A program made the translations under genes and the position numbers. From an uncultured Clostridium sp. (GTDB lineage: Bacteria > Bacillota > Clostridia > Lachnospirales > Lachnospiraceae), in the NCBI GenBank assembly GCA_945915475.1, contig CAMEFI010000007.1:1-64000 (forward strand): 64,000 bases of DNA, given 5' to 3'. The first letter of the stretch is position 1. Every line of letters begins with the position of its first letter. The notes beneath the pieces are model-generated. The model was not told the origin of the DNA. It did no database searches and saw nothing but the letters and a program-made list of their open reading frames with translations. Below, one piece after another: positions 5,832 to 56,568 of the stretch.

Positions 5832-8345
5832 TCACTCCACATTTTTCAATGCTTCATCCATCGGAATCTTCTTAATCCTTCTGTAGTCCAAAATCATAAC
5901 CAGCAGATAGCCAATCAACACAAAGAAAAACATTTTTACATATCCCTTCGGTTTAATTACAAAAGCAAACCATCCGCTATAACTGAACATAATCATTTTC
6001 CATGCCTGCGTCATAACCAATGCGCCTAACACAACACTAACAATATCTGCAATAATTAAAATTATGGTTGTAGAAAGCAGATAGAGACTTGCTATTTCAC
6101 GATTCTCGTAACCTAAAATTTTTGTCATGGATATGGCATTTTCATTTTTCTCTATAATAATTTTAGTGAGCAGATAAATGAGTACCGCTGATAACAGAAT
6201 ACACAAAATCTGAAAATAATCCATGTAAGACCCCATGGAATGATCTAACTGGTCACACATTTTTGTAATATCCCGTTCCGTAATCACTGTTGCAATATCT
6301 TCTTCCTCAATATCAGTAATTTCCGCATCCGACAGATAGCCTGAAAATTCTTCTTTATCCAAATCAAATACTAACCGATAGTTTTCAATTGACATGAAAA
6401 CTGCAATACTCTGGCATTTTTCATAAACACCCACAACTCTAAACTGGTACTGTTTGCTCTCATACTTTTCATCCAGTAAAACAGTATCTCCCACCGTCAG
6501 ATTATATTTATCCCGAAAAGGCTCTGAAATGTAGACTTCGTTACTTTTAAGTGTTGCCAGGTCCTCAATCCTTACATATCTGCTGTCCTTGGAAATTCCA
6601 TACACCGAAACCTCTTCATTTAATGCGTCACTTTTTTTCTGGAGAGAATACATACTGAATTTCTCAGCATCCTTATTTCCTGTGCCAATCACATCTCCCT
6701 CTTCATCCTCGTAGGACTTCAATATATACTGATACTTTGCAAACATCATATCTGTAGCATTTTCTTTGTAATAATCCAGTGTGGACGGCATTCCCACCGC
6801 CATGGCAAGCATGATCATGATAAAGAAAACCCCAAAGAAAAGAATGATATAATTGGGAATGTTCTGGAATATAATCCGCAGACGGAATCTCCTTAAAAAT
6901 TTCCACCTTGGAAGCTGCATGGCCTTCTTACGCTTTGTTTTCTTTAAATCATGACGCAAAAACTGCAGTGGTGTGTGCTGCATCATTTTGATAATAACCA
7001 AGAGGTTTACCACAAACATCAGCACCACAGGAATGAAAGTTGTCTTAAAAAACGCCTCCGTATTCCATATTGTTTCGTAAGTTGGAAGGCTATAGCTATT
7101 GTAATACATGGATACCACAACATTTTTAAAGACTGTATATCCAAGGAGATTACCAATGCCCGCTGCAATCATCGTTACAATCACCGGCATGGCAAGGTAG
7201 TGTCGAATCAGCTCTCCTTTTGTATACCCGGAGGCACGAAGTGTCCCGATAGCTGATGCTTCCTTTGTAATGGTATTGCTGATGGTAACTGCAAATATGA
7301 ATGCAATAATCACAATCAAAATATCCAGCAACACACCGCCCATGGCTTTATCTGACCCCATATCCTCTGTAGCAAAAGTAATAGCCGGATTCCCATATTG
7401 GGGAACATAATCCTTAAGTTCATTAGCATTTACCACAGTCTGTGTAAGCAATGCTTTCATAAAATCATCTGAAAAACTCTTCTCTTCCTTTTCATCCAAA
7501 GGCTGTTCATCGTACTGCCATGCATATGCATAATGAACCGCCTTGTCTAACCGCTCAAATCCACTCTCCGTTACCATTGCCACATCAAACTTTAATGCAT
7601 CAAACATCAGGTCGGTACTTTTTTCATGAAGGGTAGAATAATTCACATAGGCAATGAGTCCTGTAACTTTGTAGATCTGTCCACTGACTGAAATGGTATC
7701 TCCCACTTTAATTCCTGTATTATCTGCATGCATACGGTCAATGGCAATTTCATCCTTTGTCTCCGGCAGACTTCCCTCCATAAGGCAAGCCAGATTAACA
7801 TCTTCCGTCTTCACATACACCCGAATGGTTCCATCTACAATGCCATCATTATTGTTATCTTCCTCTTCATTTCTGTAAAAATTTTCATATAACGTTACCG
7901 GAACCGCTTTAAAGTCCGGATCATTTAATTCATACTTTTCCTCGGCATCTGCATATTCCTCATCAATTTCCTGCTGAATCTCTTCCCATGCATCATCATA
8001 TGCTTTCGGATACGCCTCATCCAACTTTTTTTTTGCCGTATCCAGATAATACTGCTTCATGTCAGCCTTTTCTCCTGACTCGACAGCAGAAATCAACTCC
8101 TTATCTGCTTTATTTTTCAATTCAAAATGCCCATCTTCCAGCTTGTATTTTTCCACGCCCTCATCTGCTGCTTTCATCATACTGCCATTGGCAACATACA
8201 TTCCGGATACAAATCCAATGGTAAGAATCAAAAACAGGCTTACCACAAGATACTTTTTCCAGTCTCCCAGCATTTCTCTTGGAATTCTTTTTATAAGGGG
8301 ATTTCTTATTTGGGATTTGTTGCTTTTTCGTTTTGTATTTTCCAT
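5832..8345 (-). CDS. ABC transporter permease, FtsX-type, two permease repeats
   Basis: Large membrane subunit (about 837 residues) of a MacB/FtsX-like transporter. A cytoplasmic basic N-terminus is followed by one helix (VVSLFLILTIGFVSGMYVA), a long extracytoplasmic domain of about 270 residues, three helices around residues 340-460, a second transmembrane-extracytoplasmic unit, and three closing helices. This is the doubled layout of permeases that handle peptides, lipids or antimicrobial peptides at the cell surface rather than classical import. The start at 8345 (MENTKRK) has AAGGGG ten bases upstream; the longer frame from 8366 has none. It overlaps neither neighbour and follows its ATPase by 14 bases. 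Substrate unknown. Confidence 0.88.
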   Translation of the reverse strand: MENTKRKSNKSQIRNPLIKRIPREMLGDWKKYLVVSLFLILTIGFVSGMYVANGSMMKAADEGVEKYKLEDGHFELKNKADKELISAVESGEKADMKQYYLDTAKKKLDEAYPKAYDDAWEEIQQEIDEEYADAEEKYELNDPDFKAVPVTLYENFYRNEEEDNNNDGIVDGTIRVYVKTEDVNLACLMEGSLPETKDEIAIDRMHADNTGIKVGDTISVSGQIYKVTGLIAYVNYSTLHEKSTDLMFDALKFDVAMVTESGFERLDKAVHYAYAWQYDEQPLDEKEEKSFSDDFMKALLTQTVVNANELKDYVPQYGNPAITFATEDMGSDKAMGGVLLDILIVIIAFIFAVTISNTITKEASAIGTLRASGYTKGELIRHYLAMPVIVTMIAAGIGNLLGYTVFKNVVVSMYYNSYSLPTYETIWNTEAFFKTTFIPVVLMFVVNLLVIIKMMQHTPLQFLRHDLKKTKRKKAMQLPRWKFLRRFRLRIIFQNIPNYIILFFGVFFIMIMLAMAVGMPSTLDYYKENATDMMFAKYQYILKSYEDEEGDVIGTGNKDAEKFSMYSLQKKSDALNEEVSVYGISKDSRYVRIEDLATLKSNEVYISEPFRDKYNLTVGDTVLLDEKYESKQYQFRVVGVYEKCQSIAVFMSIENYRLVFDLDKEEFSGYLSDAEITDIEEEDIATVITERDITKMCDQLDHSMGSYMDYFQILCILLSAVLIYLLTKIIIEKNENAISMTKILGYENREIASLYLLSTTIILIIADIVSVVLGALVMTQAWKMIMFSYSGWFAFVIKPKGYVKMFFFVLIGYLLVMILDYRRIKKIPMDEALKNVE

Positions 8346-45444: not shown

Positions 45445-46350
45445 CTATTCATCGGGCAAATCTGGGATCAATTCCACATAAACCTGATCAAACATTTTCC
45501 TAAGATCTGCACAAATCTCATTCCGAAGCTGATGCAAAATATGAGTATTCATCATATCATCATGACTGGATATATATATTTCCACCCATGTTTTCCTGCC
45601 GGTTTGGATGACATCCAAAAATTCAATATCATAATACACTTTATCCATGTACTTTTCTGCAACCCGGCGAATCTCGCCCATAATTTCTGCACTAGGAGCA
45701 AAGAGCACAAGATTCTTCAGATTGAGAATAATCATTTTCACAGGTTCTACTAAAAGCAAACATGCCATTATTACGGCAACAAGAGGATCCATATACGATG
45801 CCAGATATGCCCATTGCGTCTTTTGCAGCCCCATCTGAATAAAGAAAGCAGCAGAAACACCCAAACTTGAAATGATATCTAACTTCCATATATAAATCTC
45901 TGCCTTAATGATAAGGGACTCATATCTCTTGCTAAAATGGTGCAGTAACAGGTAAATAAATACACAGCCCGCCCATACACCAAGCTCAAATATGGCAATC
46001 ACTCCGGCATCCACCTGTCTGCCATCATGAAACAAAATAATAATATTATCCCATATAAGCTGAATTGTAACAACCAACAATACACTATATTTAATCACAA
46101 TAAACAATGACTCTACCTGTGAGAATCCATATGGATGTTTCTCCGTCACCGGCTTATACAATAAAGGCACTAATACCAAAAACGGACCAATCATAATCAA
46201 GTCTGTAACATCAAAAATACAGTCCATCAAAAGAGAATGAGAACGAGTTACATATGCCATAACTCCCTCTGCTATCATAAATAGAACACTTCCCAAAAAA
46301 GAAATGTTCATAATCCTCTTCTCATTTTTAATTTTATTCTCACTCTTCAA
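45445..46350 (-). CDS. cation diffusion facilitator family transporter, unusual metal site
   Basis: 301 residues with six helices and a cytoplasmic C-terminal domain (VYYDIEFLDVIQTGRKTWVEIYI). The helix-2 metal pair is present (DCIFD), and HPYGFSQVE matches the family HPYGxxRxE loop. In helix 5, where zinc transporters have HxxxD, this protein reads IYIWKLD, so the histidine is replaced by isoleucine. Either it moves another ion, or it is no longer a zinc transporter. It starts 20 bases after the coiled-coil gene, in the DUF5716 operon. Confidence 0.82.
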   Translation of the reverse strand: MKSENKIKNEKRIMNISFLGSVLFMIAEGVMAYVTRSHSLLMDCIFDVTDLIMIGPFLVLVPLLYKPVTEKHPYGFSQVESLFIVIKYSVLLVVTIQLIWDNIIILFHDGRQVDAGVIAIFELGVWAGCVFIYLLLHHFSKRYESLIIKAEIYIWKLDIISSLGVSAAFFIQMGLQKTQWAYLASYMDPLVAVIMACLLLVEPVKMIILNLKNLVLFAPSAEIMGEIRRVAEKYMDKVYYDIEFLDVIQTGRKTWVEIYISSHDDMMNTHILHQLRNEICADLRKMFDQVYVELIPDLPDE

Positions 46351-46370: not shown

Positions 46371-47552
46371 CTATTCAATATTTATATGATATGCCTCCAT
46401 CTCACGTCTCACTTGTTCACAAAGCTCCGGATTTGTCTTCAGCATTTCTCTGATATCTTTCAAACCATCTAACCGAAGCTGATCATTATATGCAATCTGG
46501 TCACGTAATTTTTGACGACGTACATTTAGCGAATGTTTCACCTCAACCATCTCCCTCGGATCAACTAACGCAAGGGACTGCTTTGTCCAGATATCCGGAT
46601 CTTTCACTCCATGGGAATATAAAAGCTTGGAAAGTGCCTCTGTATGTTCCCGTAAATCCCCGGTGGTTCGCTGATATTTACGCACCTCATCTACCATAAT
46701 GAGATATTGGTCATATAGATATTCCAGTTCCCGCAGGCTGTTCACATGATATTTTTCATAGAGATATTCCAATGTAGATGTATTATTCACATACTTTATC
46801 TTCACTTTATTCATGAGACTGATGGCACGATTCTCCCGTTTTTCTGCCATCTTGAATTCATAGGACAGATTCCGATATGCAACCACCGACAATGCCGCCA
46901 TTCCTGCGATAACTAAAAGGATCAGCAATATAGGAATCACAAGATTGGTCTTTGTCAGCATCCCAATTACCGCAAGAGTAATCACTACCAGAACGGATAT
47001 TGTTCCAAAAACAACAATAAAATTCTTAAGCTTACCCTGGCGATGCTCCACCGTCTCCTGAATATACTCCTGCGCATTCTTTTCGCCTTCCAGATTTGTC
47101 ATGTCCCGGCGTATCACCATATCCATATCTTCTAATTCCTTAAGTTGGCCAAATATATCTGTCAAATCTTTCTCCAACCCCTGAATCATCCGGAAATTCT
47201 CATCACTGATACGGTCATCCGAATGCAGAAACTGTGTAGTTTCATTTTCTAAAAATGCTATCTTCTTCGCAATATCAGTAATCTGTGTACGTACATTCTG
47301 TGGCAGCTCCTCAATGGTCTGAATGTCTTCAAAATAGGAGGTCACCATATCATACTCCACACGCAAATCTTCCATCTGATACGTCGCTTCTACAATCTGA
47401 TCACATTTGTATGCAACATCCTCCTGGGGACCCTTTGCATTCTGTTCCTGCTGCTGTTTCTTCAGATAATTATCAATGCTCTCATATTCAAATGATTCTT
47501 CCGTTACCTCCGTTTTGGTAAACATATCCTTAACGATACGCAATAAACCCAT
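46371..47552 (-). CDS. coiled-coil protein with two central membrane helices
   Basis: 393 residues, unknown family. The first 175 residues are acidic and heptad-like (VEATYQMEDLRVEYDMVTSYF..., TDIFGQLKELEDMDMVI), two helices follow (FIVVFGTISVLVVITLAVIGM and LVIPILLILLVIAGMAALSV), and the rest is again long alpha-helix (LEYLYEKYHVNSLRELEYLYDQY). A scaffold placing helical arms at the membrane is a fair reading. It follows the TPR-like gene by 12 bases, so it belongs to the DUF5716 operon. Confidence 0.8.
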   Translation of the reverse strand: MGLLRIVKDMFTKTEVTEESFEYESIDNYLKKQQQEQNAKGPQEDVAYKCDQIVEATYQMEDLRVEYDMVTSYFEDIQTIEELPQNVRTQITDIAKKIAFLENETTQFLHSDDRISDENFRMIQGLEKDLTDIFGQLKELEDMDMVIRRDMTNLEGEKNAQEYIQETVEHRQGKLKNFIVVFGTISVLVVITLAVIGMLTKTNLVIPILLILLVIAGMAALSVVAYRNLSYEFKMAEKRENRAISLMNKVKIKYVNNTSTLEYLYEKYHVNSLRELEYLYDQYLIMVDEVRKYQRTTGDLREHTEALSKLLYSHGVKDPDIWTKQSLALVDPREMVEVKHSLNVRRQKLRDQIAYNDQLRLDGLKDIREMLKTNPELCEQVRREMEAYHINIE

Positions 47553-47564
47553 AACCTTTCCTCT

Positions 47565-48398
47565 CTACACCGTCTGCTCACGGAACTCTGCCTTCAAATG
47601 TTCAAGCACCGTATCCATTCGCTGATTAAAATCCGTCAGATTATTCTTCTCATAGTGATATATCGCCCGTTCCATCCGATGATAAATCGGCGAACCTGTC
47701 ACATCTGCCTCCGCATCCTCAATGGCATCATAAATTGGCTGTACCATATCTTCTGCATGATAATATGTTGCCATTACCTCCACGTCTGACCGTTCTTTCA
47801 TGGTGGCCATCAGCAGTAAATACTCATAGATTGTTCCAACATTGCCAGTCAATTCATAAGCCTTACGATAAGATTCCATGGCTGCCTCTAACTCAAAGTT
47901 ATTTGCATAGGCAATTGCTCTATTATGATAAATAGACGCCAACAGCTTATCATTACCAATATCCGGATACTGATCTAATATTTCATCATAAATAGCAGCC
48001 GCTTTCAGATATTTATGGTAACGCAGGAATCCGTCTGCCTGCAATTTGCGATACTGCGGCGGAGTCAATCCTTTCATTCGTTCTATCTGCAAAATGAATT
48101 CTTTCACTTCCGGAATCGTATAATATTCTTTATATGTAAGAATCGCCGTCAGCAAATCCGTAAGGTCTGTTGATTCTTTCTCCTTCATTAACCGCAGACT
48201 TTGTGCTAAATCCGGCAGATGCAGTTCATTTTCAATCCAGTAAAACATTGGCACACCGATATGTTCCTCCGAGATCAGTGCAATGTTATTATAAATATAA
48301 TAGCATAGCTCCTCGTAAGAAAATACTTCTATCTTCGTGTTGGGAAAAATATATGAAGTTGTCGCCGGTGTGGTCTCACACAATATCACTCGTCCCAT
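47565..48398 (-). CDS. TPR-like helical protein of the DUF5716 operon
   Basis: 277 residues, soluble. The N-terminus (MGRVILCETTPATTSYIFP...VFSYEELCYYIYNN) is a domain I do not recognise; residues 120-190 contain helix pairs with TPR spacing (YRKLQADGFLRYHKYLKAAAIYDEIL, then LASIYHNRAIAYANNFELEAAMESYRKAYEL). AAAGGAG lies six bases before ATG 48398. The TPR part would dock partner proteins, probably DUF5716 or DUF5717 products encoded beside it. Confidence 0.78.
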   Translation of the reverse strand: MGRVILCETTPATTSYIFPNTKIEVFSYEELCYYIYNNIALISEEHIGVPMFYWIENELHLPDLAQSLRLMKEKESTDLTDLLTAILTYKEYYTIPEVKEFILQIERMKGLTPPQYRKLQADGFLRYHKYLKAAAIYDEILDQYPDIGNDKLLASIYHNRAIAYANNFELEAAMESYRKAYELTGNVGTIYEYLLLMATMKERSDVEVMATYYHAEDMVQPIYDAIEDAEADVTGSPIYHRMERAIYHYEKNNLTDFNQRMDTVLEHLKAEFREQTV

Positions 48399-48451
48399 AT
48401 TGTCTCCTTTATAAACACTCCATTGGTCACATCCCATAAACCATGAGCTTA

Positions 48452-49714
48452 TCACTCTATATGCCCAATTGAAAAATCTTTCCGGTATATCTTATTCGTC
48501 GTGGGATAGATTCTTCCAAATCCAACATCACGAATCACAATTGCACCAACCCGTTCATCCGTAAGTTCTACCTCCAAGGATATCTTTGTAGTCTTGGGCG
48601 GCCGTTTTGGCAAACCATGAATCTCGATAATCTCCCGCTGCATTTCCTTTGAGACCTTATCCCGGTATAACATCTCAATCCGGTTCGTATCATCTAGAAA
48701 TAATGTAACCTGACCTTTCATGTTGTACCATTCTCTTCCCCCAATTGCAATTGAGTAGAACCGGTTGCGTCCCTCTGTGTCTCCAACAGACACACCAATA
48801 TCAAAAGGAATGCTGCCTTGTGTGCATAACACGCAATCCCGGTCAGCCTCATAGGCTCCATACTTAGCATGATAGCAGGCACCCTTTGTGTACAGATTCT
48901 GCCCCATAAAAACCCGTCTGCCGTCACAAAGCACTTTCTGCGATTCTTCAATCCATTTATCCGTAAATCCCACTCCTGTAAGGTACACCGTTGAAATGTA
49001 TGTCTCTCTCATTTTCTTTCTGGCAATCTGTGCAAAATTCTCATCTAACACTTTCACATCTTCTAACAACATTGCATAGGGAAGTTCTTCACTCAAATTC
49101 TGCTGTCCCAAATAGTAAATGCGGGTATTTCCCTGATGTTTTTTGTCAATGCGATAATACTGCATACCTTCTGTCCCGTACTCAAACATAGCAACGCTGT
49201 TGGTTCGAAGCCGTTCATCCTGGTTCATTACATACTGAAAAAATGCATTCTCATGGCTCATAATATAGAACGCATTCCGGGAAAGTCCTAACTCTTTGCG
49301 CAGTTTACCAAGCACTTCATAAACCTTTGGATGATATTCTTCTAAAGTAACCGTTAAACCCTTCAGCTCGTACTCCGGGGAACGTGAAAGGAATTCCTCC
49401 ACATGCGTTTTAAGGAGGATAAGCAATAACGCTTCATATGTATACGCTGCTCCCTCTACTGTAACATGTGCATCCGAATCTATATTACCAACAATATCTT
49501 CCACAATCTTTCCTTCCTGCTGAAAGCGGACTGTACTCACATTATTTCCAACGTACCACTTTTTCTCTTTTTCCGAATAAAACATGACGTTGGGTAACTG
49601 ATAGGTTTCTGTATTATTCAATTGATAAATAGAAGTGGGCTCCTCCCGGCCCTCTTCATAATAACTCATCTGTATATTCTTCCGGCATAGGTCCAATCCC
49701 AAATAAATATCCAT
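48452..49714 (-). CDS. DUF5716 family actin/Hsp70-fold protein
   Basis: 420 residues. It begins with an actin-fold phosphate-1 loop, IYLGLDLCRKNIQMSYY, shows a phosphate-2 like strand AMFEYGTEGMQYYRI near residue 180 and an adenosine-site segment TVYLTGVGFTDKW near residue 250, so it is probably an ATP-binding Hsp70/actin relative. A C-terminal beta domain (KISLEVELTDERVGAIVIRDVGFG) resembles a substrate-binding part. I assign it to DUF5716, known mainly from Lachnospiraceae, with no established role. It follows a diguanylate cyclase by 34 bases and precedes the TPR gene. Confidence 0.82.
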   Translation of the reverse strand: MDIYLGLDLCRKNIQMSYYEEGREEPTSIYQLNNTETYQLPNVMFYSEKEKKWYVGNNVSTVRFQQEGKIVEDIVGNIDSDAHVTVEGAAYTYEALLLILLKTHVEEFLSRSPEYELKGLTVTLEEYHPKVYEVLGKLRKELGLSRNAFYIMSHENAFFQYVMNQDERLRTNSVAMFEYGTEGMQYYRIDKKHQGNTRIYYLGQQNLSEELPYAMLLEDVKVLDENFAQIARKKMRETYISTVYLTGVGFTDKWIEESQKVLCDGRRVFMGQNLYTKGACYHAKYGAYEADRDCVLCTQGSIPFDIGVSVGDTEGRNRFYSIAIGGREWYNMKGQVTLFLDDTNRIEMLYRDKVSKEMQREIIEIHGLPKRPPKTTKISLEVELTDERVGAIVIRDVGFGRIYPTTNKIYRKDFSIGHIE

Positions 49715-49748
49715 CCTGTTTTATCCTTTCGTAAACATTCCAAGCCGT

Positions 49749-50894
49749 CTACTGCCGCGCCCGTTTCACCTCATACATCTTCTCATCCGCAGCCGACAGA
49801 ATATCATCCACCGTTATCTCATCTTCCTTGCTATACAATATATACCCAACACTCAAGGATATCTCATATGGAACATCCTTACTATATTCTACTTCCTTTT
49901 CCTTTATCTGCTGTGTCAGGTTTCGAAGTTCTCCTTCATCCCTCACATGACCAATTACAATAAACTCGTCCCCTCCAAAACGTGCAACAAAATCCCGTTC
50001 CGGAACACTGGTCCGAAGAATCTTTCCAACTTTCACCAACGCTTCATCTCCTGCCACGTGACCATACTCATCATTAATCTGTTTGAACCAATCCACATCA
50101 ATCATCATGCAGTAAAGTAAATCAGGGGCATTGGGTAATTTCCCCACTTCCCAGAAAAGCTGCTTTTTCATCTGCCGACGATTGTATAATCCTGTAAGTG
50201 TATCTTTTGCAATCTGGTTATTCTGCAGATTAACAAATAGGATAAAGATGGACAACGCAGAACAAAGCCAGGTAATGGACAGACCATAAAACAGAAATTG
50301 CAGGATATTACCAATAAATGTAGGCAATGGAAAGACTAACAATACCACATAGAGTGACTTCTCCCTCATCCTGGTATTCTGTATCATTTCGCGAATTACA
50401 ATTATAATACTGGCAATCCAGTATACCCCTGTCAGCACAACAGCCATCCAGATAAAATGTCCACGCACATATCTATTACTTTCTGTCAAAGAATAAAACC
50501 ACTTTGTCCATGGACTGACGACTGCCATTCCAAGACCAATCCACGCCGGCATAAACAACAGTAATTTCGTCCTGGTGCGAAATTCATGTTTGGGAAACAG
50601 CCTGCTTAAGCTATACATAAACCACTCATATCCAAAAATCACCTGTACTGCAAAATATGTAATACAGGCAAGATGCGTCAGAATAACTGCCTGGATAGAT
50701 GCATGCCCACGGAGTACATAAATAACGATGTCCGCCATCAAAATAATCATATTACACAGAACCATTCCCATGAAGTATTTCTGCTTGTTCTCCTTTCCTT
50801 CATGAGAAATCCACTTTTTATATACCCACATTGTAAATAGCAGGCAGATACCAATTATGTTGACTTCAATATATTCTGCCATTTCTATATTCAT
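49749..50894 (-). CDS. membrane diguanylate cyclase of the DUF5716 operon
   Basis: 381 residues: about six helices over residues 1-215, then a GGDEF domain (DTLTGLYNRRQMKKQ ... ARFGGDEFIVIG). The RxxD inhibitory site is not present (PERD at that place). It would make cyclic di-GMP at the membrane. It is the first gene of the operon leading to DUF5716, so second-messenger control of that set is plausible. Confidence 0.92.
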   Translation of the reverse strand: MNIEMAEYIEVNIIGICLLFTMWVYKKWISHEGKENKQKYFMGMVLCNMIILMADIVIYVLRGHASIQAVILTHLACITYFAVQVIFGYEWFMYSLSRLFPKHEFRTRTKLLLFMPAWIGLGMAVVSPWTKWFYSLTESNRYVRGHFIWMAVVLTGVYWIASIIIVIREMIQNTRMREKSLYVVLLVFPLPTFIGNILQFLFYGLSITWLCSALSIFILFVNLQNNQIAKDTLTGLYNRRQMKKQLFWEVGKLPNAPDLLYCMMIDVDWFKQINDEYGHVAGDEALVKVGKILRTSVPERDFVARFGGDEFIVIGHVRDEGELRNLTQQIKEKEVEYSKDVPYEISLSVGYILYSKEDEITVDDILSAADEKMYEVKRARQ

Positions 50895-51004
50895 GTATGA
50901 TACCTCGCCTAATTAATTGTGCTCTTCACTTTTACATACAACAAGGTCATTATACACCCGAAATTCTCTATTTGAAAAGTATTTTAGTAAAAACATAACA
51001 AAAA

Positions 51005-51035
51005 GTTCCCTGTCAGAGTGAATCTGACAGGGAAC
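51005..51035 (-). terminator. terminator after hsp20
   Basis: GTTCCCTGTCAG pairs with CTGACAGGGAAC around seven bases; minus-strand RNA continues with TTTTTGTTATG. It isolates hsp20 from the following operon. Confidence 0.88.
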
Positions 51036-51051
51036 CTGTATGGATATTGAA

Positions 51052-51531
51052 TTATCCTTCAATGGCAATATAGTTCTTACCTTCCACAGCCGTGTTCTCT
51101 TTCTTAGGAACTTTCAACTGCAAGATACCGTTCTCAAACTTTGCAGAAATCTCATCCTGTGTGATATCATCGCCAACATAAAAGCTTCTACTCATGCTGC
51201 CAACATAACGCTCTTTCCGGATATACTTGCCATGTTTCTTTTCTTTCTCTTCCTTATCAAGTCCTTTCGAAGCGGAAATGGTAATATATCCATCGTTCAA
51301 CTGGGCTGTGACTTCATCTTTTTTGAAGCCGGGTAAGTCAATATCAACTTCGTAAGCATCATCTGTCTCACGGACATCCGTCTTCATCAGGTTCTTTGCA
51401 TGTTTGCCATACAATGGGTTCTTAGAAGGAAACATGGTCTTCTCAAATTCCTTCTCAAAATCCTTGTCGAAGGGAAATTCGTCCATCCAATCATCAAATA
51501 AGCTTTCTCCAAAAATACTAGGTGTTAACAT
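51052..51531 (-). CDS. small heat-shock protein, Hsp20 family
   Basis: 159-residue ATP-independent holdase. An N-terminal arm with SLFDDWMDEFPFDKDF is followed by the alpha-crystallin domain (VRETDDAYEVDIDLPGFKKDEV ... ENGILQLKVPKKE, ending in the GxLxLxxPK pattern). AAAGGAG precedes the ATG. Upstream lies a CIRCE element and perfect promoter. It sits between the DUF5717 and DUF5716 genes. Confidence 0.95.
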   Translation of the reverse strand: MLTPSIFGESLFDDWMDEFPFDKDFEKEFEKTMFPSKNPLYGKHAKNLMKTDVRETDDAYEVDIDLPGFKKDEVTAQLNDGYITISASKGLDKEEKEKKHGKYIRKERYVGSMSRSFYVGDDITQDEISAKFENGILQLKVPKKENTAVEGKNYIAIEG

Positions 51532-51691
51532 AAGTCATTACTCCTTTCTTTCCTAAAACAAGTGTCGGAAATATGAACTTTCAATTAAGTTACATAGGCA
51601 CTTAGACTTTTGTGTATATAGCACTATCAGAGAAACTGAAGTGTCAATTGTATGTTATAAGATCGGATCCGGATTCCTTATCTTTATCTTT

Positions 51692-51734
51692 GTTATACCA
51701 CTCGTTGTTAGCACTGTCAATAGGTGAGTGCTAA
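51692..51734 (-). promoter_or_regulatory. CIRCE operator and promoter of hsp20
   Basis: TTAGCACTG-N9-GAGTGCTAA (51708-51734) differs from the CIRCE consensus TTAGCACTC-N9-GAGTGCTAA at one base. The minus-strand promoter TTGACA (51720-51715), 17 bases, TATAAC (51697-51692) has its -35 box inside the CIRCE. HrcA should repress hsp20 here. The start codon is 161 bases further on, giving a long leader. Confidence 0.92.
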
Positions 51735-51786
51735 TTATTTTGTGAAGAATTTGTGAAGCTTATAGCGTACTCTTAGAAAGGTCTTT

Positions 51787-54700
51787 TTAATCCATAAGCT
51801 CCAAATTCTCTTCTATAATCGTCGAAAGCTTTAAATATTTATCAATCTTATTGATCAGCATCTGGTTCTCCCCGATTTCCTGATTGAGGAGCATAGAGTT
51901 GAGCATCTCGAAACGATTCTCATATTCCTCTGTCTCACCCTTTGCTTTCATTGCCTGGCTCTCATAAACTTTTGTATGCTTCCTATTATTCTCCGGCATC
52001 TCATATAGCAGATTCTCACCATGAAAGAGAACAAATTCCTTCATGTAATAACCCGGTAACACTTCCATCATCCGTGCAATCTGATTACATTCCGGTTTTC
52101 CGGCTCCGGACTGAATTCCATAACGAAATGACAACTGACGCCCTGCTTTGTCCTTTGTTACCACATAGGTCATCAGGAACAAATCTTTTGGAAGATTCAC
52201 ATACTTCTTAAACTTCCGGAAAAACGGCAGCAAGATACCACGTTTTACAAAATATTCTACCTGCTGTCGGATCCATGCAATCTCCTGTTGTTCTAACTTT
52301 GGTTTCTTACTTAGATACAAAAGCATTGCCGCCTGGCACATATCATCCTTTAACTCTTCTGTCACCATCTGCGTATACAAATCATCAAAAAATACCGGCG
52401 GTATCTCATCATCTTCTACAAGATATGCAAAGGATGCACGCTTAAAAAATGCCTTGATTACCATACCTCTTCTCTTCTTCCGCAGATAAGATTCAAAAAC
52501 ACGGAATACATCCTTGTTCCATTGCTCTGTATATAAAGTCTCACATAAAATATTCTCTTCCAACAGATCCAACCGGGTTAGTCGTCCGTTTGCACGTTTC
52601 CAAAGCTTTAACATATCCTGCACGCCACTTTGGTAATAGTCCACTAAGTAGCTCAATACATCCACCGTATCCTGTCCCATCCGATACAGATAATTTGCAA
52701 TGGATACCAATGCATCTTCCCTGGCATACTGGGAAAATTCTTTCATGGCACTGACCAGGCTCACCAGATGCTCCGGCATCACTTCCTGATAGCCAAACCG
52801 TTTGACTGCAGCATATGCTTTATCATACAACCCACACATAATCAGATAATTCATATATTCCACACTATCTGCCGGCAATACATAATCCATATCCACCCGG
52901 TCGAGATAGCTTCGCAAAATATCCATATCCAAATGTTCATGATAATAGCGTACAATGCCATAGATTGCCTGCTGTTTTGTCTCTTCACTAATCTCCCGAA
53001 ATGCCAACAGGTCTCTTGCAATATTGACTTCTTTGGCATTGGTGGCGTCATACGCTTTCCACTCATCATAACGATATAGTACATATCGATAATCATCTCC
53101 GGCATATATCCCCAAAATCTCCATATATTCCGATTCATCCACCAACTTTTGTAACTTGTATGGAATGGTACTAATATAGCGGTTATGATCCCGGTCCACC
53201 AACGACACCACTGCTGACTCTGTAATCATATCAACATACGCAACATGATTGACCACCGGCACGATCTCTTCTTTTTCTAATTCCTTATGGGAAATCACAA
53301 CTGCCACAATATTGTCATTCATTACCGTTAATTTTCTCTTGAAAATTACATTCACAAGACTTGCCGCAAAATGCGGTGTCACTGCCTGGGGTCTTAAGAA
53401 CTCACCATAGAGAACGCTTAAGTCATCACTCATATTCCCTTTGATAATCTGCCCTTCCATAAATGCCATCATATTCGGCAAATATTCCTCAAACTGTCCA
53501 AGGTATCTTCTCTTATTCTGAATCACATTGGCATACAAATACGCATACTCTGCATCAGTCAGGCTGCTCTTGTAATTAAAATATCGCAACACTGAATCCG
53601 GAATTACATCATACCTGCTTTTATCCATACTGTGTAGATAATTCTCCTGGATACCAACCAGCTTATATCCACATTTGATACCCTCTAAGTAATATTCATG
53701 GTAGCGATGCTCTGTCTTACCACCTCGAATCAACATGGCACAGATAATCCGAATAATCTCCGGCTTATTGGAAAACTCATATATCTTCGCAAGTAACGCA
53801 AATACCTGCGGATGAAAATCCCGTCTTCTTCCCGCTAACTGCACAAATTCCTCTTCCACTTCTTTGCTTAAATAATGGTTGCGGATTCCAAATCGAATGG
53901 CTGCAATCTCAACTGTAGTTAATTTCTTCAACATTAACGGATCCTGATTCAAGAGATCACAGACCTCAATTGCAAGCACCGGACTGGAATATCCCCCCAG
54001 ATGCAGACCTTCAATCTGTGTAAAAAGCCACTGCTTATCCTTCTGATATCTCTCATCTAAATTAATCAGCAACCAGAAATAGAATAATTTATCCCTCTGC
54101 GTTGTAAGTGCCTGTTCAATCTCCTCACAGGCACTCACAATCTGTCTGACATCCTTTGACAACAAGGCCTTCAAATACAGATAATAACAATGCTCCCTTG
54201 GCCCATCCATCGTCTTATCCATATCTGCTTCCATCCGGCGAATCTCCTGTCCGGCATTCTCTTCCTGCCCGGCAAGAATACTCATATGCAAAAGTCCAAG
54301 CTTATAAAGACCAGTCTCCGGTTCAAAAGAGATCAGATTGTGAAGCGCCTGTCGTGTCTTTTCAATAAATTGCTCAATGGATAATAATCCGGTACGATAA
54401 TCCAGATAATTGTGTAATACCGCTGCAATCTCCAGCTTCTTAAGCCGCCTGTCATGATCCCGGTGTACAATTACACGGGAACCTTCCTCTGCGGCTTTGA
54501 CAATAACATTTACCACAATCTTCTGGTAAGTATTCTCTATAATAATCTGTCCCTGTTCTGTCTTATTCTCATCCAACTGCTCCGGATCCAACGAATAGGA
54601 AACCACACAACGGTCATCCTTAAAATCCATACTGCATACAGACTTCTGGTGCACTATAAGAAATCTCGAATCTGTATGTATCTGCATCCGGCAATATCCC

Positions 54701-55359
54701 CAGGTATTCTTGCGAAGTACCAATTCATGTGTCTCCTGCATCTTCGGAAAACGGAACTGAAACCGGTCGTGTTCCACCTGAAGTGCAAGTGCCCGTTTCT
54801 TATGGATATAAACCAGGAATTCTTCTAAAGCCTGATTCTTATCAAGGGAATCCTTCAGACTTCGATATGCCTCTAGATATTCCTCCTGCCCGGCAAGTAA
54901 TGTTCTTGGAAACTCATCAGAATGGAAAATCTGCAATGCCTTCTCCCAATCCGTCTCTGCCAGTGCCGAAAACTTCATCAAATCCTCTAATGCCACTCCA
55001 TTCACATCAATGAACGGCGCAACAACCTCTATGTTATACGGAATCTCCATCTCCGTGCCATTTCCAATTAGGTGAATGTTGCCATCATAGACACTTCCAC
55101 GTTTTCTGCTTGTTGCATCAAAAGAAAATGCAATCTCACCTTTCTTTCCCACCAGACTATGATCAGAAAGGCTCAACAAATAAGCGTCATCGTACACCAT
55201 CATTTTCATTGCCACATCATTTACAGAGGTAGCCTGAATACTTCCGTGATATACGCTTCCTGCTTCTATCTTTAATTGTACATACTTCTTTGAAAGTTTG
55301 ATTTCCGGATACTCAACATAGAAATCACCCTTTGCATATTGTTCTACTTTACTTTTCAT
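51787..55359 (-). CDS. DUF5717 family giant protein
   Basis: 1190 residues, soluble, no signal peptide. Residues 1-115 form an Ig-like beta domain (KLSKKYVQLKIEAGSVYHGSI ... IPYNIEVV), a second beta part spans about 205-290, and the remainder is dominated by helical repeats of TPR or HEAT style (for example HLGGYSSPVLAIEVCDLLNQD, PQVFALLAKIYEFSNKPEIIRIICAML) before a beta-rich end. I assign it to DUF5717, a Lachnospiraceae family usually found beside DUF5716. AAGGA precedes the ATG. It diverges from the aminotransferase gene. Its size and repeats suggest a scaffold or large peptide-binding platform. Confidence 0.82.
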   Translation of the reverse strand: MKSKVEQYAKGDFYVEYPEIKLSKKYVQLKIEAGSVYHGSIQATSVNDVAMKMMVYDDAYLLSLSDHSLVGKKGEIAFSFDATSRKRGSVYDGNIHLIGNGTEMEIPYNIEVVAPFIDVNGVALEDLMKFSALAETDWEKALQIFHSDEFPRTLLAGQEEYLEAYRSLKDSLDKNQALEEFLVYIHKKRALALQVEHDRFQFRFPKMQETHELVLRKNTWGYCRMQIHTDSRFLIVHQKSVCSMDFKDDRCVVSYSLDPEQLDENKTEQGQIIIENTYQKIVVNVIVKAAEEGSRVIVHRDHDRRLKKLEIAAVLHNYLDYRTGLLSIEQFIEKTRQALHNLISFEPETGLYKLGLLHMSILAGQEENAGQEIRRMEADMDKTMDGPREHCYYLYLKALLSKDVRQIVSACEEIEQALTTQRDKLFYFWLLINLDERYQKDKQWLFTQIEGLHLGGYSSPVLAIEVCDLLNQDPLMLKKLTTVEIAAIRFGIRNHYLSKEVEEEFVQLAGRRRDFHPQVFALLAKIYEFSNKPEIIRIICAMLIRGGKTEHRYHEYYLEGIKCGYKLVGIQENYLHSMDKSRYDVIPDSVLRYFNYKSSLTDAEYAYLYANVIQNKRRYLGQFEEYLPNMMAFMEGQIIKGNMSDDLSVLYGEFLRPQAVTPHFAASLVNVIFKRKLTVMNDNIVAVVISHKELEKEEIVPVVNHVAYVDMITESAVVSLVDRDHNRYISTIPYKLQKLVDESEYMEILGIYAGDDYRYVLYRYDEWKAYDATNAKEVNIARDLLAFREISEETKQQAIYGIVRYYHEHLDMDILRSYLDRVDMDYVLPADSVEYMNYLIMCGLYDKAYAAVKRFGYQEVMPEHLVSLVSAMKEFSQYAREDALVSIANYLYRMGQDTVDVLSYLVDYYQSGVQDMLKLWKRANGRLTRLDLLEENILCETLYTEQWNKDVFRVFESYLRKKRRGMVIKAFFKRASFAYLVEDDEIPPVFFDDLYTQMVTEELKDDMCQAAMLLYLSKKPKLEQQEIAWIRQQVEYFVKRGILLPFFRKFKKYVNLPKDLFLMTYVVTKDKAGRQLSFRYGIQSGAGKPECNQIARMMEVLPGYYMKEFVLFHGENLLYEMPENNRKHTKVYESQAMKAKGETEEYENRFEMLNSMLLNQEIGENQMLINKIDKYLKLSTIIEENLELMD

Positions 55360-55476: not shown

Positions 55477-56568
55477 ATGGGTACTGTAGCACAATCCTTT
55501 CACGGAAGTGATCTTGAAGTTATTGCAAAACGTTATCATATATCTCAGGAATCAATTATTCCTTATGCATCTAATGTCAATCCTCTAGGCATTTCACCAA
55601 TGGCCAGACAGGCAATTATTGATAACGTAGATGCAATCAAAGCCTATCCTGACCGGGACTATATAAGCCTACGCCAATCCATCTCCAATTATTGTGGGGC
55701 TTCCCCGGAGCAGATGATTCTCGGAAATGGAACTTCTGAATTAATCAATCTTACTATTAAGACCATTGCTCCAAAAGAAACCATGATCATTGGTCCAACC
55801 TATTCTGAATATGGACGTGCTGCCCAGCTTGCCGGAAGCCAGGTCGACACCTATATGTTGAAAAATCTCGATGATTTCGAATTGGATGTGGATATGTTCT
55901 TAAAAGCACTTCATGATTCCATTGATCTGCTTATCATCTGTAACCCGAATAATCCCACCAGCAAAGTCATTACCAAAGAGCAGATGGATGTCATATTGGC
56001 ACGCTGCTTAGAACTGAATATCTTTGTTATGGTAGATGAAACATATGTAGAATTTGTCAAGGATATTAATCTCATTTCCTCAATCCCTTTGACAAAGAAG
56101 TATGATAATCTGATTGTTCTGCGCAGCGTTTCCAAGTTCTTTGCTGCTCCCGGGCTTCGTCTTGGCTATGCCATTACCAATAACGAAGACTTCCTAACGG
56201 CTACGGCAAACAGCAAGACACCTTGGAACATCAACGTGTATGCATCGATTGCCGGTGTCATGTTTGAAGATGACCATTACATCAACCTGACAAAGAGCTT
56301 AATCCAAACAGAGCGAAACTTAATCTATTCTGCCCTATGCAGTCGGAAGACTATTAAGGTATTCAAACCGGAAGCCAACTTCGTCCTTATCAAACTGCTC
56401 AAGGAAGAACAGACTGCATCGGAAGTATTCGACTACTGCATCAAACGCGGTTTTATGATCCGGGACTGCACTGACTATGAAGGTCTTGGTGACAAATATA
56501 TCCGGTTCTGCTTCATGAAACCGGAACAGAATGATGATGTGGTGAACACCATCTTAGAGATTGTGTAA
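55477..56568 (+). CDS. HisC/CobD-like class II aminotransferase
   Basis: 363-residue PLP enzyme. NVNPLGISP near the N-terminus, ILGNGTSELINL and IICNPNNPTSKVI are standard for HisC and CobD relatives; the PLP lysine is in RSVSKFFAAPGLRLGY near residue 220. HisC uses histidinol phosphate; CobD decarboxylates threonine phosphate. The sequence opening SFHGSD is more CobD-like, but no cobalamin or histidine genes are adjacent, so substrate remains open. Confidence 0.87.
   Translation: MGTVAQSFHGSDLEVIAKRYHISQESIIPYASNVNPLGISPMARQAIIDNVDAIKAYPDRDYISLRQSISNYCGASPEQMILGNGTSELINLTIKTIAPKETMIIGPTYSEYGRAAQLAGSQVDTYMLKNLDDFELDVDMFLKALHDSIDLLIICNPNNPTSKVITKEQMDVILARCLELNIFVMVDETYVEFVKDINLISSIPLTKKYDNLIVLRSVSKFFAAPGLRLGYAITNNEDFLTATANSKTPWNINVYASIAGVMFEDDHYINLTKSLIQTERNLIYSALCSRKTIKVFKPEANFVLIKLLKEEQTASEVFDYCIKRGFMIRDCTDYEGLGDKYIRFCFMKPEQNDDVVNTILEIV

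Follow-up and report, generated by a model that had tools for sequence, protein, structure and literature searches.

Genes and signals at the locus

The window, a stretch of 64,000 nucleotides from a Lachnospiraceae contig (CAMEFI010000007.1), carries six open reading frames on its minus strand over ~9 kb, all of which our ORF check of the window recovered where an earlier note on this DNA had placed them. With their regulatory signals and the divergent neighbour, from the highest coordinate downwards, they are:

55477..56568 (+), class I/II aminotransferase (PF00155); divergent chromosomal neighbour, outside the system
51787..55359 (-), DUF5717 protein, 1190 aa (PF18984, E 1.4e-249; PF18983, E 3.4e-60); core, candidate large soluble scaffold
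51708..51734 (no strand assigned), CIRCE element before Hsp20; 1 mismatch, 0.02 expected by chance
51052..51531 (-), Hsp20 (PF00011, E 5e-22); insertion with its own regulatory signals
51003..51037 (-), hairpin of 15 pairs resembling a terminator, downstream of Hsp20; consensus match only
49749..50894 (-), 7TM-GGDEF cyclase (PF00990, E 1e-35); insertion outside the conserved system
48452..49714 (-), DUF5716 protein, 420 aa (PF18980, E 2.6e-92, residues 120-415); core, lidless pseudo-Hsp70
47565..48398 (-), TPR protein, 277 aa from the ATG at 48398 (weak TPR matches, all below the cut-off); core
46371..47552 (-), coiled-coil protein (by appearance and hydropathy), 393 aa; accessory

The DUF5716 and DUF5717 proteins are clear members of their Pfam families (PF18980 and PF18984/PF18983), whose entries describe families of unknown function only and mention neither the Hsp70 kinship nor the operon reported here. 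DUF5717, for which the note had described an Ig-like start and helical repeats (a putative alpha-solenoid scaffold), has no convincing relative in the PDB by profile search: two matches came up, neither of them better than E 1. The coiled-coil protein has no Pfam match above the cut-off; its single hydrophobic stretch (residues 173-229, by hydropathy) is read as a predicted two-TM hairpin. The gaps of 12-53 bases previously described for the last four genes were measured at 34 bp (GGDEF-DUF5716), 53 bp (DUF5716-TPR) and 12 bp (TPR-coiled coil), the second becoming -4 bp if the TPR gene starts at an alternative GTG (48455) that overlaps DUF5716 by 4 bp. The CIRCE element, which by its consensus is an HrcA operator, is near-perfect. 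The region contains 8 terminator-like sites, where shuffled sequence gave 5.7, and a search for RNA elements found none.

We asked how much of this arrangement is shared by relatives. DUF5716 and DUF5717 are both present in 116/120 genomes of the same family (PF18984 in 117/120) and lie on the same contig in 112 of the 116; three of the four exceptions look like contig breaks (G009, G051, G055) and one looks truly separated (G039). That the two families go together in Lachnospiraceae, as the note had it, is thus borne out, and they do not mostly occur apart. Within the genus, DUF5717 was found in 20/20 genomes and DUF5716 in 18/20, the two genomes lacking a DUF5716 match being fragmented (G557 and G561, 270 and 430 contigs). 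In a search for members outside the order, PF18980 was matched in 4/299 phylum genomes and PF18983 in 9/245 class genomes, every match falling in the window's own family, in samples that held few members of the window's order.

A TPR orthologue accompanies DUF5716 in 40/40 same-family loci, as a separate gene in 38, as a fusion in one (L148) and by unfiltered ORF search in one (L138); the gene caller can miss overlapping genes, and several of the Hsp70-B genes described below were recovered in the same way. DUF5716-TPR fusion proteins of 684-723 aa occur in 4 genomes. The N-terminal domain of the TPR protein is present in one copy in 21/30 genomes and absent from 9, and there are therefore no paralogous contexts. 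Of the two partners that the note had proposed to look for, the TPR gene is thus constant and the coiled-coil gene is not: strong matches to the latter are found in 53/120 family genomes, 52 of the 53 on the DUF5716 contig, a count that omits two weak matches in G013 and a second weak match in G047 and would otherwise be 54/120. Its absence from 67/120 genomes (weak G013 matches uncounted) means that tethering to the membrane through this protein cannot be general. Median spacing is tight, at 16.5 bp between DUF5717 and DUF5716 (40 loci), -4 bp between DUF5716 and TPR (38 loci) and 13.5 bp between TPR and coiled coil (18 loci). The aminotransferase is the immediate divergent neighbour of DUF5717 in 19/40 same-family and 11/20 sister loci, and ValS is another recurrent housekeeping neighbour.

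Hsp20 and the GGDEF cyclase do not belong to this arrangement. Neither lies between the two DUFs in any of the 40 same-family loci, where Hsp20 is never labelled and a GGDEF protein appears once, elsewhere in the locus (L151). At other loci of the same genus, DUF5717 directly precedes DUF5716 in 16/17; Hsp20 is upstream of DUF5716 in 1/17, and GGDEF has no match in any of the 17, which span 2.4-3.9 kb. On these counts we reject both genes as components of the system, and the suggestion that heat shock and c-di-GMP are its inputs finds no support; judged from such comparisons, both genes are late local insertions. The GGDEF gene ends 34 bp before DUF5716 and may therefore be co-transcribed with it here. 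What had been proposed as one six-gene system is accordingly redrawn: the conserved unit is DUF5717, DUF5716 and TPR, in that order, followed by the two-TM coiled-coil protein where it occurs.

A larger Hsp70 operon in sister families

A larger operon was found in Defluviitalea, Vallitaleaceae and "Ca. Epulonipiscium" MAGs. There, DUF5717 homologues, split or fused, open a series that continues with Hsp70-A, a coiled-coil GrpE protein, a pseudo-Hsp70, Hsp70-B, an Hsp70-vWA protein (Hsp70-C), a TPR protein and a coiled-coil protein, relatives of the last closing the operon in some loci only. Among 30 named sister loci longer than 17 kb, 21 have all of the genes from DUF5717 to Hsp70-C. Hsp70-A, B and C all match Pfam HSP70 and are too short to carry a lid, in place of which C has a vWA domain (E 1e-10). 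The GrpE domain (PF01025) is C-terminal in its coiled-coil protein (E 7e-11, 2e-9 and 5e-12 in L101, L104 and L324, respectively). J-domain families are missing among the representative sister operon proteins scanned; an Hsp70 system without a J-domain is unusual.

One representative each of Hsp70-A, B and C scored below the NCBIfam DnaK and HscA equivalog cut-offs. Fifteen further Hsp70s (12 from same-family and 3 from sister genomes), a sample of the extra Hsp70s of these genomes drawn among the matches listed, all fell outside the A, B and C clades in our first tree; the branch leading to one of them (L302) is very long. More distant loci with an Hsp70-A-like gene (L269-L298; 25-35% identity, among the best 80 of 441) are not flanked by relatives of DUF5717 or of the coiled-coil protein, and have a GrpE-like neighbour in 5/30.

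The operon of the window's own family lacks all three active Hsp70s and the GrpE protein. A chaperone origin is strongly supported because the sister operon holds three Hsp70s and a GrpE domain; to this extent the earlier idea of a client-handling machine is partly supported.

Descent and catalytic residues of DUF5716

By hhalign, DUF5716 matches the sister pseudo-Hsp70 (P 100%, E 5e-47, 424 columns) and, near full length, the active Hsp70-B (P 99.8%, E 4e-29, 412 columns); its match to the Hsp70-A profile is weaker and N-terminal only. Against the PDB, its N-terminal part matches DnaK chains (E 3e-6), not FtsA or PilM. The kinship with Hsp70 that had been supposed is thereby upheld: homology over the nucleotide-binding domain (NBD) places DUF5716 in the Hsp70 superfamily.

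The residues that we take to be catalytic, K70, E171 and T199 in DnaK numbering, tell of a different fate. Among 43 aligned proteins (of 57 ORFs labelled DUF5716), equivalents are kept in 0/43, 0/43 and 1/43, respectively; the sister pseudo-Hsp70 keeps each of them in 0/13, and Hsp70-A, B and C keep all three in 13/13 each. On these grounds, ATPase activity of DUF5716 is very improbable, and we reject the Hsp70-like cycle once proposed for it. Nucleotide binding is still possible because D8 (40/43), D194 (21/43) and the first adenosine-loop glycine (42/43) are kept.

Two regions are shortened as well. The stretch that separates the phosphate-2 motif from the adenosine motif, and in which lobe IIB presumably lies, measures by sequence alignment 143 residues in DnaK, 145-146 in Hsp70-B, 139 in an intermediate protein (G420) and 60-78 in 12/13 DUF5716 proteins; as aligned, about half of the IIB-containing segment is absent from these 12, leaving no complete lobe IIB. 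After the adenosine loop, DUF5716 has 169-180 residues vs 305-313 in DnaK, and the C-terminal alpha lid is absent. In DnaK, the main contact of GrpE is with NBD lobes IB and IIB, according to excerpts of a published study (PMC10803776).

In a careful tree, from which one pseudo-Hsp70 (L105_2) and all 15 further Hsp70s had been excluded beforehand, DUF5716 and the pseudo-Hsp70s lie on one side of a branch with 100/100 support, and the alternative joining DUF5716 to Hsp70-B without the pseudo-Hsp70s is rejected (p-AU 6e-39). The first tree, limited to 13 rows per group and containing 12 DUF5716 proteins plus the intermediate, gave a weak node for this pair (78) and placed L105_2 outside it. Long branches occur in the trees. 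The G420 protein occupies the pseudo-Hsp70 slot and matches both the DUF5716 model (E 2.7e-127) and the pseudo-Hsp70 model (E 1.4e-80). That DUF5716 is the orthologue of the sister pseudo-Hsp70 is well supported by their common clade and shared operon slot, and the tree and the intermediate suggest loss in Lachnospiraceae rather than gain in the sisters.

A proposed reduced chaperone machine and its relation to known systems

We propose, with a probability of roughly 0.6, that a dedicated machine with several Hsp70s was reduced to the DUF5717-DUF5716-TPR(-coiled coil) operon, which would now encode an ATP-independent pseudo-Hsp70/TPR module on a large scaffold. The descent of DUF5716 is well supported; its activity we infer. 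Here, DUF5717 would permanently hold the DUF5716-TPR module, and the coiled-coil protein, where present, would tether it to the membrane. DUF5716 may bind a polypeptide or a partner without an ATP cycle, in the manner of the lidless Ssz1 in the ribosome-associated complex. The likely job of the module would be to hold, position or hand over one particular client; species that have the coiled-coil protein would do this at the membrane or close to it, and any ATP-driven step would fall to the housekeeping DnaK, or there would be none. A bolder version, to which we give somewhat less than even odds, is that a whole Hsp70 machine was made ATP-free: every ATPase and the exchange factor would have been lost, the GrpE-contacting lobe in step with GrpE, and the pseudo-Hsp70, scaffold and TPR protein would have become near-universal as a permanent client-holding platform. 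The ancestral complex, dedicated and specific to the order, would then have comprised three lidless Hsp70s (one with vWA), the coiled-coil GrpE, the pseudo-Hsp70, the giant scaffold, the TPR protein and the membrane coiled coil.

Other readings account for part of these observations. That DUF5716 is instead a cofactor of cellular DnaK, stimulating it or recruiting it to DUF5717 in the way of Hsp110 or Ssz1 with ATP cycling in trans, strikes us as unlikely. In all 47 genomes scanned, the matches listed include one or more Hsp70s with an E-value no higher than 1e-176, which we take to be DnaK, and in the sister operon the pseudo-Hsp70 has three active Hsp70s around it, a setting that would suit a co-chaperone. 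However, the scanned operon proteins showed no J-domain, and the large NBD deletion alters a region that is not known to be missing from Hsp110 or Ssz1. A precedent for such stimulation is that of Ssb by Ssz1 with Zuo1, as stated in excerpts of PMC7083937. A DUF5716 that cycles as an Hsp70-like ATPase on DUF5717, with Hsp20 and GGDEF bringing heat shock and c-di-GMP as inputs, can claim true Hsp70 kinship, the retained D8, adenosine-loop glycine and D194, the CIRCE and the nearby GGDEF gene, but is highly improbable given the lost K70, E171 and T199, the IIB-containing segment halved in 12/13, the absence of both genes from between the two DUFs in all 40 family loci, the direct succession of DUF5717 and DUF5716 in 16/17 other loci of the genus and, for Hsp20, its own CIRCE and terminator-like hairpin.

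Actin/Hsp70-like folds also serve as structural adaptors, as in PilM and FtsA. A non-chaperone membrane platform for the envelope or division apparatus, with DUF5716 as adaptor and the coiled-coil protein as anchor, would suit the presence of two-TM coiled-coil and TPR proteins in one unit, and near-universality in the family together with housekeeping neighbours (aminotransferase, ValS) suggests a cellular role. We nevertheless think it quite unlikely, since the kin operon with active Hsp70s and GrpE points to chaperone chemistry, the PDB matches are to DnaK rather than FtsA or PilM, and fewer than half of the genomes have the membrane protein. A defence role in biological conflict, akin to the GAP1-N2 neighbourhoods of Kaur et al. 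(2020), has in its favour a shared HSP70, GrpE, second Hsp70 and TPR-associated protein (excerpts of PMC7159879), plus the vWA domain, and weak PADLOC candidate-defence matches of sister Hsp70-B and C. It seems scarcely credible to us: neither a GTPase nor GAP1 turned up in the general domain scan of operon proteins, the four window proteins have no PADLOC match, and conflict systems are patchy, unlike these genes, which are near-universal, single-copy and recurrent in their location.

Taken together, our findings offer an origin, and a role that can be tested, for two Pfam families so far unexplained, in genes almost universal in Lachnospiraceae. They add Hsp70 groups that lie below the DnaK and HscA model cut-offs and that the tree separates from the DnaKs sampled. 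The active machine, the G420 intermediate and the ATPase-less remnant form a natural series in which to ask what an Hsp70 scaffold does without its motor.

In the literature found, only the systems of Kaur et al. appear as near kin, and DUF5716 is named, within the excerpts available, only in a cancer-biology study. Excerpts of a review (PMC8215388) name DnaK, HscA and HscC as three prokaryotic Hsp70 types; sister Hsp70-A, B and C resemble them in keeping the Hsp70 catalytic residues, with a GrpE partner as in DnaK systems, and differ from DnaK and HscA in falling below both model cut-offs, being too short for a lid and, as far as the operon proteins were scanned, lacking a J-domain partner. 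In the GAP1-N2 neighbourhoods, as excerpts of PMC7159879 describe them, an HSP70 is accompanied by a GrpE of its own and by another Hsp70, and DnaJ or TPR is associated with an FNIII protein. The sister operon likewise has an HSP70 with its own GrpE, further Hsp70s, a TPR protein and a DUF5717 scaffold that is possibly Ig-like (putative), but no GTPase, GAP1 or DnaJ domain was seen in it, the system is near-universal in the family, and the sister operon holds four Hsp70-fold paralogues, one of them inactive. The closest functional parallel that we can offer is Ssz1 of the fungal ribosome-associated complex, which according to excerpts of PMC7083937 is lidless, binds but cannot hydrolyse ATP and is held by Zuo1. 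DUF5716 differs in being bacterial, in its other partners, with no J-domain partner seen, and in also lacking about half of the IIB-containing segment. What it appears to share with Ssz1, as far as its sequence tells, is the form of a lidless, non-canonical Hsp70 that does not hydrolyse ATP and works among active Hsp70s, and, as we propose, a permanent complex with its partner.

Conservation and gene order of the DUF5717-DUF5716 locus

The feature under study is built around a core of DUF5717, DUF5716 and TPR genes, sometimes followed by a coiled-coil gene:

Within 46371-55359, minus strand: DUF5717 protein, 1190 aa
Within 46371-55359, minus strand: Hsp20, between DUF5717 and the cyclase
Within 46371-55359, minus strand: 7TM-GGDEF cyclase, between Hsp20 and DUF5716
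Within 46371-55359, minus strand: DUF5716 protein, 420 aa
Within 46371-55359, minus strand: TPR-like protein, 277 aa
Within 46371-55359, minus strand: coiled-coil protein, 393 aa, with a single hydrophobic stretch
45445-46350: CDF cation exporter, starting 20 bp past the coiled-coil gene
51708-51734: CIRCE element 5' of Hsp20, one mismatch (chance expectation 0.02)
3' of Hsp20: terminator-like hairpin of 15 pairs

The exporter and coiled-coil genes are possibly co-transcribed; in the window's closest same-genus relative (G569, locus L189; DUF5716 87% identical), the exporter gene lies 9 bp past the coiled-coil gene. The GGDEF model also labels two window ORFs outside the feature (605 and 637 aa), which brings the candidate cyclases in the window to at least three.

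Among 120 genomes of the window's family (its own included), which is probably Lachnospiraceae judging by its Pfam families and the named sister groups, DUF5716 (PF18980) was matched in 117 and DUF5717 (PF18984) in 117, with both in 116. DUF5716 occurs alone in G020 (67% complete) and DUF5717 alone in G098, where the gene is close to a contig end; the same search found neither in G029 and G091. These last two genomes are also without a close copy of the adjoining aminotransferase (best identity 29% and 27%, versus 43% in G098). The best matches share a contig in 112 of the 116 genomes; in G009, G051 and G055 they look to be parted by contig breaks, while in G039 they look truly separated. Within the genus, DUF5717 was found in 20/20 genomes and DUF5716 in 18/20, both misses being fragmented assemblies.

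Gene order was read from 40 family loci of at most 20 kb each. The median gap is 16.5 bp from DUF5717 to DUF5716 and -4 bp from DUF5716 to a separate TPR gene (38 loci); of the remaining two, L148 has the TPR fused to DUF5716, and in L138 DUF5716 overlaps the TPR gene. One-protein DUF5716-TPR fusions of 684-723 aa, found in G043, G067, G025 and G071, are the strongest sign in the sequences that these proteins act jointly. Strong matches to the coiled-coil protein come from 53 of the 120 genomes, in 52 of them on the contig that carries DUF5716, which makes it an accessory. Neither Hsp20 nor GGDEF lies between DUF5717 and DUF5716 in any of the 40 loci. At 17 other same-genus loci, DUF5717 is directly upstream of DUF5716 in 16, Hsp20 occupies the junction in one (G569), and none has a GGDEF match. 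L189 also carries an AAA ATPase and DUF6414 gene upstream of Hsp20 (6010-8219), which may be another insertion into this junction, with DUF5717 on a separate contig.

A larger sister operon with three Hsp70s

DUF5717_N was found in 75 of 146 genomes in an order-wide sample, 60 of them outside the window's family. There, the loci read carry a larger homologous operon in the order DUF5717 (often split, about 400 + 900 aa), Hsp70-A (about 558 aa), GrpE-cc (a coiled-coil protein of 560-650 aa that ends in a GrpE domain), a DUF5716-like pseudo-Hsp70 (about 410-545 aa), Hsp70-B (about 545 aa), the vWA-bearing Hsp70-C (about 690-730 aa) and TPR (about 385 aa), in some with an added coiled coil. Hosts in a named-genome scan include Defluviitalea phaphyphila, Petrocella, MAGs of Vallitaleaceae and Defluviitaleaceae, and MAGs called Candidatus Epulonipiscium. 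Hsp70-A identity is at least 57% in 50 of the best 80 of 441 loci, then falls to about 31%. Thirty of these high-identity loci exceed 17 kb; the full six of DUF5717, Hsp70-A, GrpE-cc, pseudo-Hsp70, Hsp70-B and Hsp70-C are present in 21, a TPR in 18 and a coiled coil in 6; in nine, mostly termite-gut MAGs, the set is partial within reach. Several loci among L231-L263 (termite-gut Defluviitaleaceae and other MAGs) show a scattered operon, with Hsp70-A solitary or accompanied by GrpE-cc and pseudo-Hsp70 only.

None of the sister Hsp70s is long enough to include the lid, and a vWA domain stands in its stead in Hsp70-C; the fusions at L173:14786-16861 and L169:14045-16222 carry a DTTGSMD motif. We know of no description of this domain combination. 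No J-domain family was seen among the representative sister-operon proteins scanned, and Hsp70-A, B and C (one representative each) fall below NCBIfam DnaK/HscA cut-offs. The PADLOC candidate-defence model PDC-M61B weakly matches Hsp70-B (L101:862-2499, E 4e-11) and Hsp70-C (L173:14789-16861, E 2e-7), probably through general Hsp70 kinship.

DUF5716 as a pseudo-Hsp70 and probable reduction of the operon

Sequence comparison identifies DUF5716 as a pseudo-Hsp70. Profile alignment pairs it with the sister pseudo-Hsp70 along 424 columns (P 100%, E 5e-47), with Hsp70-B along 412 columns, tail included (P 99.8%, E 4e-29), with Hsp70-A over the N-terminal half only (P 94%) and with DnaK in PDB at E 3e-6. 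A careful tree built from 69 rows, which excludes pseudo-Hsp70 L105_2 and 15 other Hsp70s and in which long branches persist, separates DUF5716 together with the pseudo-Hsp70s from the rest by a branch supported at 100/100, and a grouping of DUF5716 with Hsp70-B without the pseudo-Hsp70s is rejected (p-AU 6e-39); the first tree, with those sequences in, gave this node a support of 78 and left L105_2 outside.

The checked phosphate-binding and catalytic residues are kept in 13/13 of each of Hsp70-A, B and C. Equivalents of K70, E171 and T199 (DnaK numbering) occur in 0/13 pseudo-Hsp70s; in DUF5716 the counts are 0/43 for K70, 0/43 for E171, 1/43 for T199, 21/43 for D194 and 40/43 for D8. Spacing between the phosphate-2 and adenosine motifs, the segment that includes lobe IIB, is 143 residues in DnaK, 145-146 in Hsp70-B, 60-78 in 12 of 13 DUF5716 proteins and 139 in that of the out-of-family genome G420. 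The operon GrpE is absent from the lineage whose IIB segment is shortened; lobes IB and IIB are the main GrpE contact on DnaK (PMC10803776).

The difference between family and sister operon fits a reduction on the side of the window's family. All 47 genomes scanned have an Hsp70 scoring E 1e-176 or lower, which is regarded as DnaK, and none of 15 further Hsp70s sampled (12 from same-family and 3 from sister genomes) groups with Hsp70-A, B or C in the tree. Outside the window's family, no genome of the order-wide sample scores higher for DUF5717_N than G420, a member of a different family of that order. Its locus (L324, G420:C25:30001-50000) retains every kind of operon gene, including a DUF5716-like protein whose IIB-length segment is still whole, with GrpE shortened to 279 aa and Hsp70-C and TPR each split into two frames, part of which splitting sequencing errors could mimic. 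This gene content makes it a possible intermediate of operon loss, and its retained and eroded genes fit loss in the window's family. A divergent aminotransferase is the immediate neighbor in 19/40 family and 11/20 sister loci, and ValS lies inside the fetched stretch in 8/40 and 5/15; these common neighbors support vertical descent of one locus. One further Hsp70 in the window's genome (G000:C16:62027-63688, L299; about 560 aa) clades with similar proteins from other genomes and is perhaps HscC-like.

Proposed working and known systems

The DUF5716-TPR pair would form a module held on DUF5717 and, in somewhat under half of genomes, placed beside a two-TM coiled-coil protein. DUF5716 is not expected to go through an Hsp70 cycle, as it is lidless, has lost much of IIB and does not keep the residues for hydrolysis; it would attach to a partner or client either persistently or with low affinity. 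A client, a membrane role and any link of the module to DnaK are likewise proposed.

In the literature searched, no publication treats DUF5716 or DUF5717 as a system, and one review names DnaK, HscA and HscC as the prokaryotic Hsp70 types (PMC8215388). The GAP1-N2 neighborhoods of Kaur et al. (2020; PMC7159879), in which GrpE and two Hsp70s stand alongside FNIII-DnaJ or FNIII-TPR proteins, share a striking range of parts with the present operons, but no GTPase was seen among the operon proteins here, and the present genes are near-universal in the family. The closest working analogue of DUF5716 is Ssz1, which is lidless, binds ATP without hydrolyzing it and is locked to Zuo1 (PMC7083937); DUF5716 shares the lidless form.
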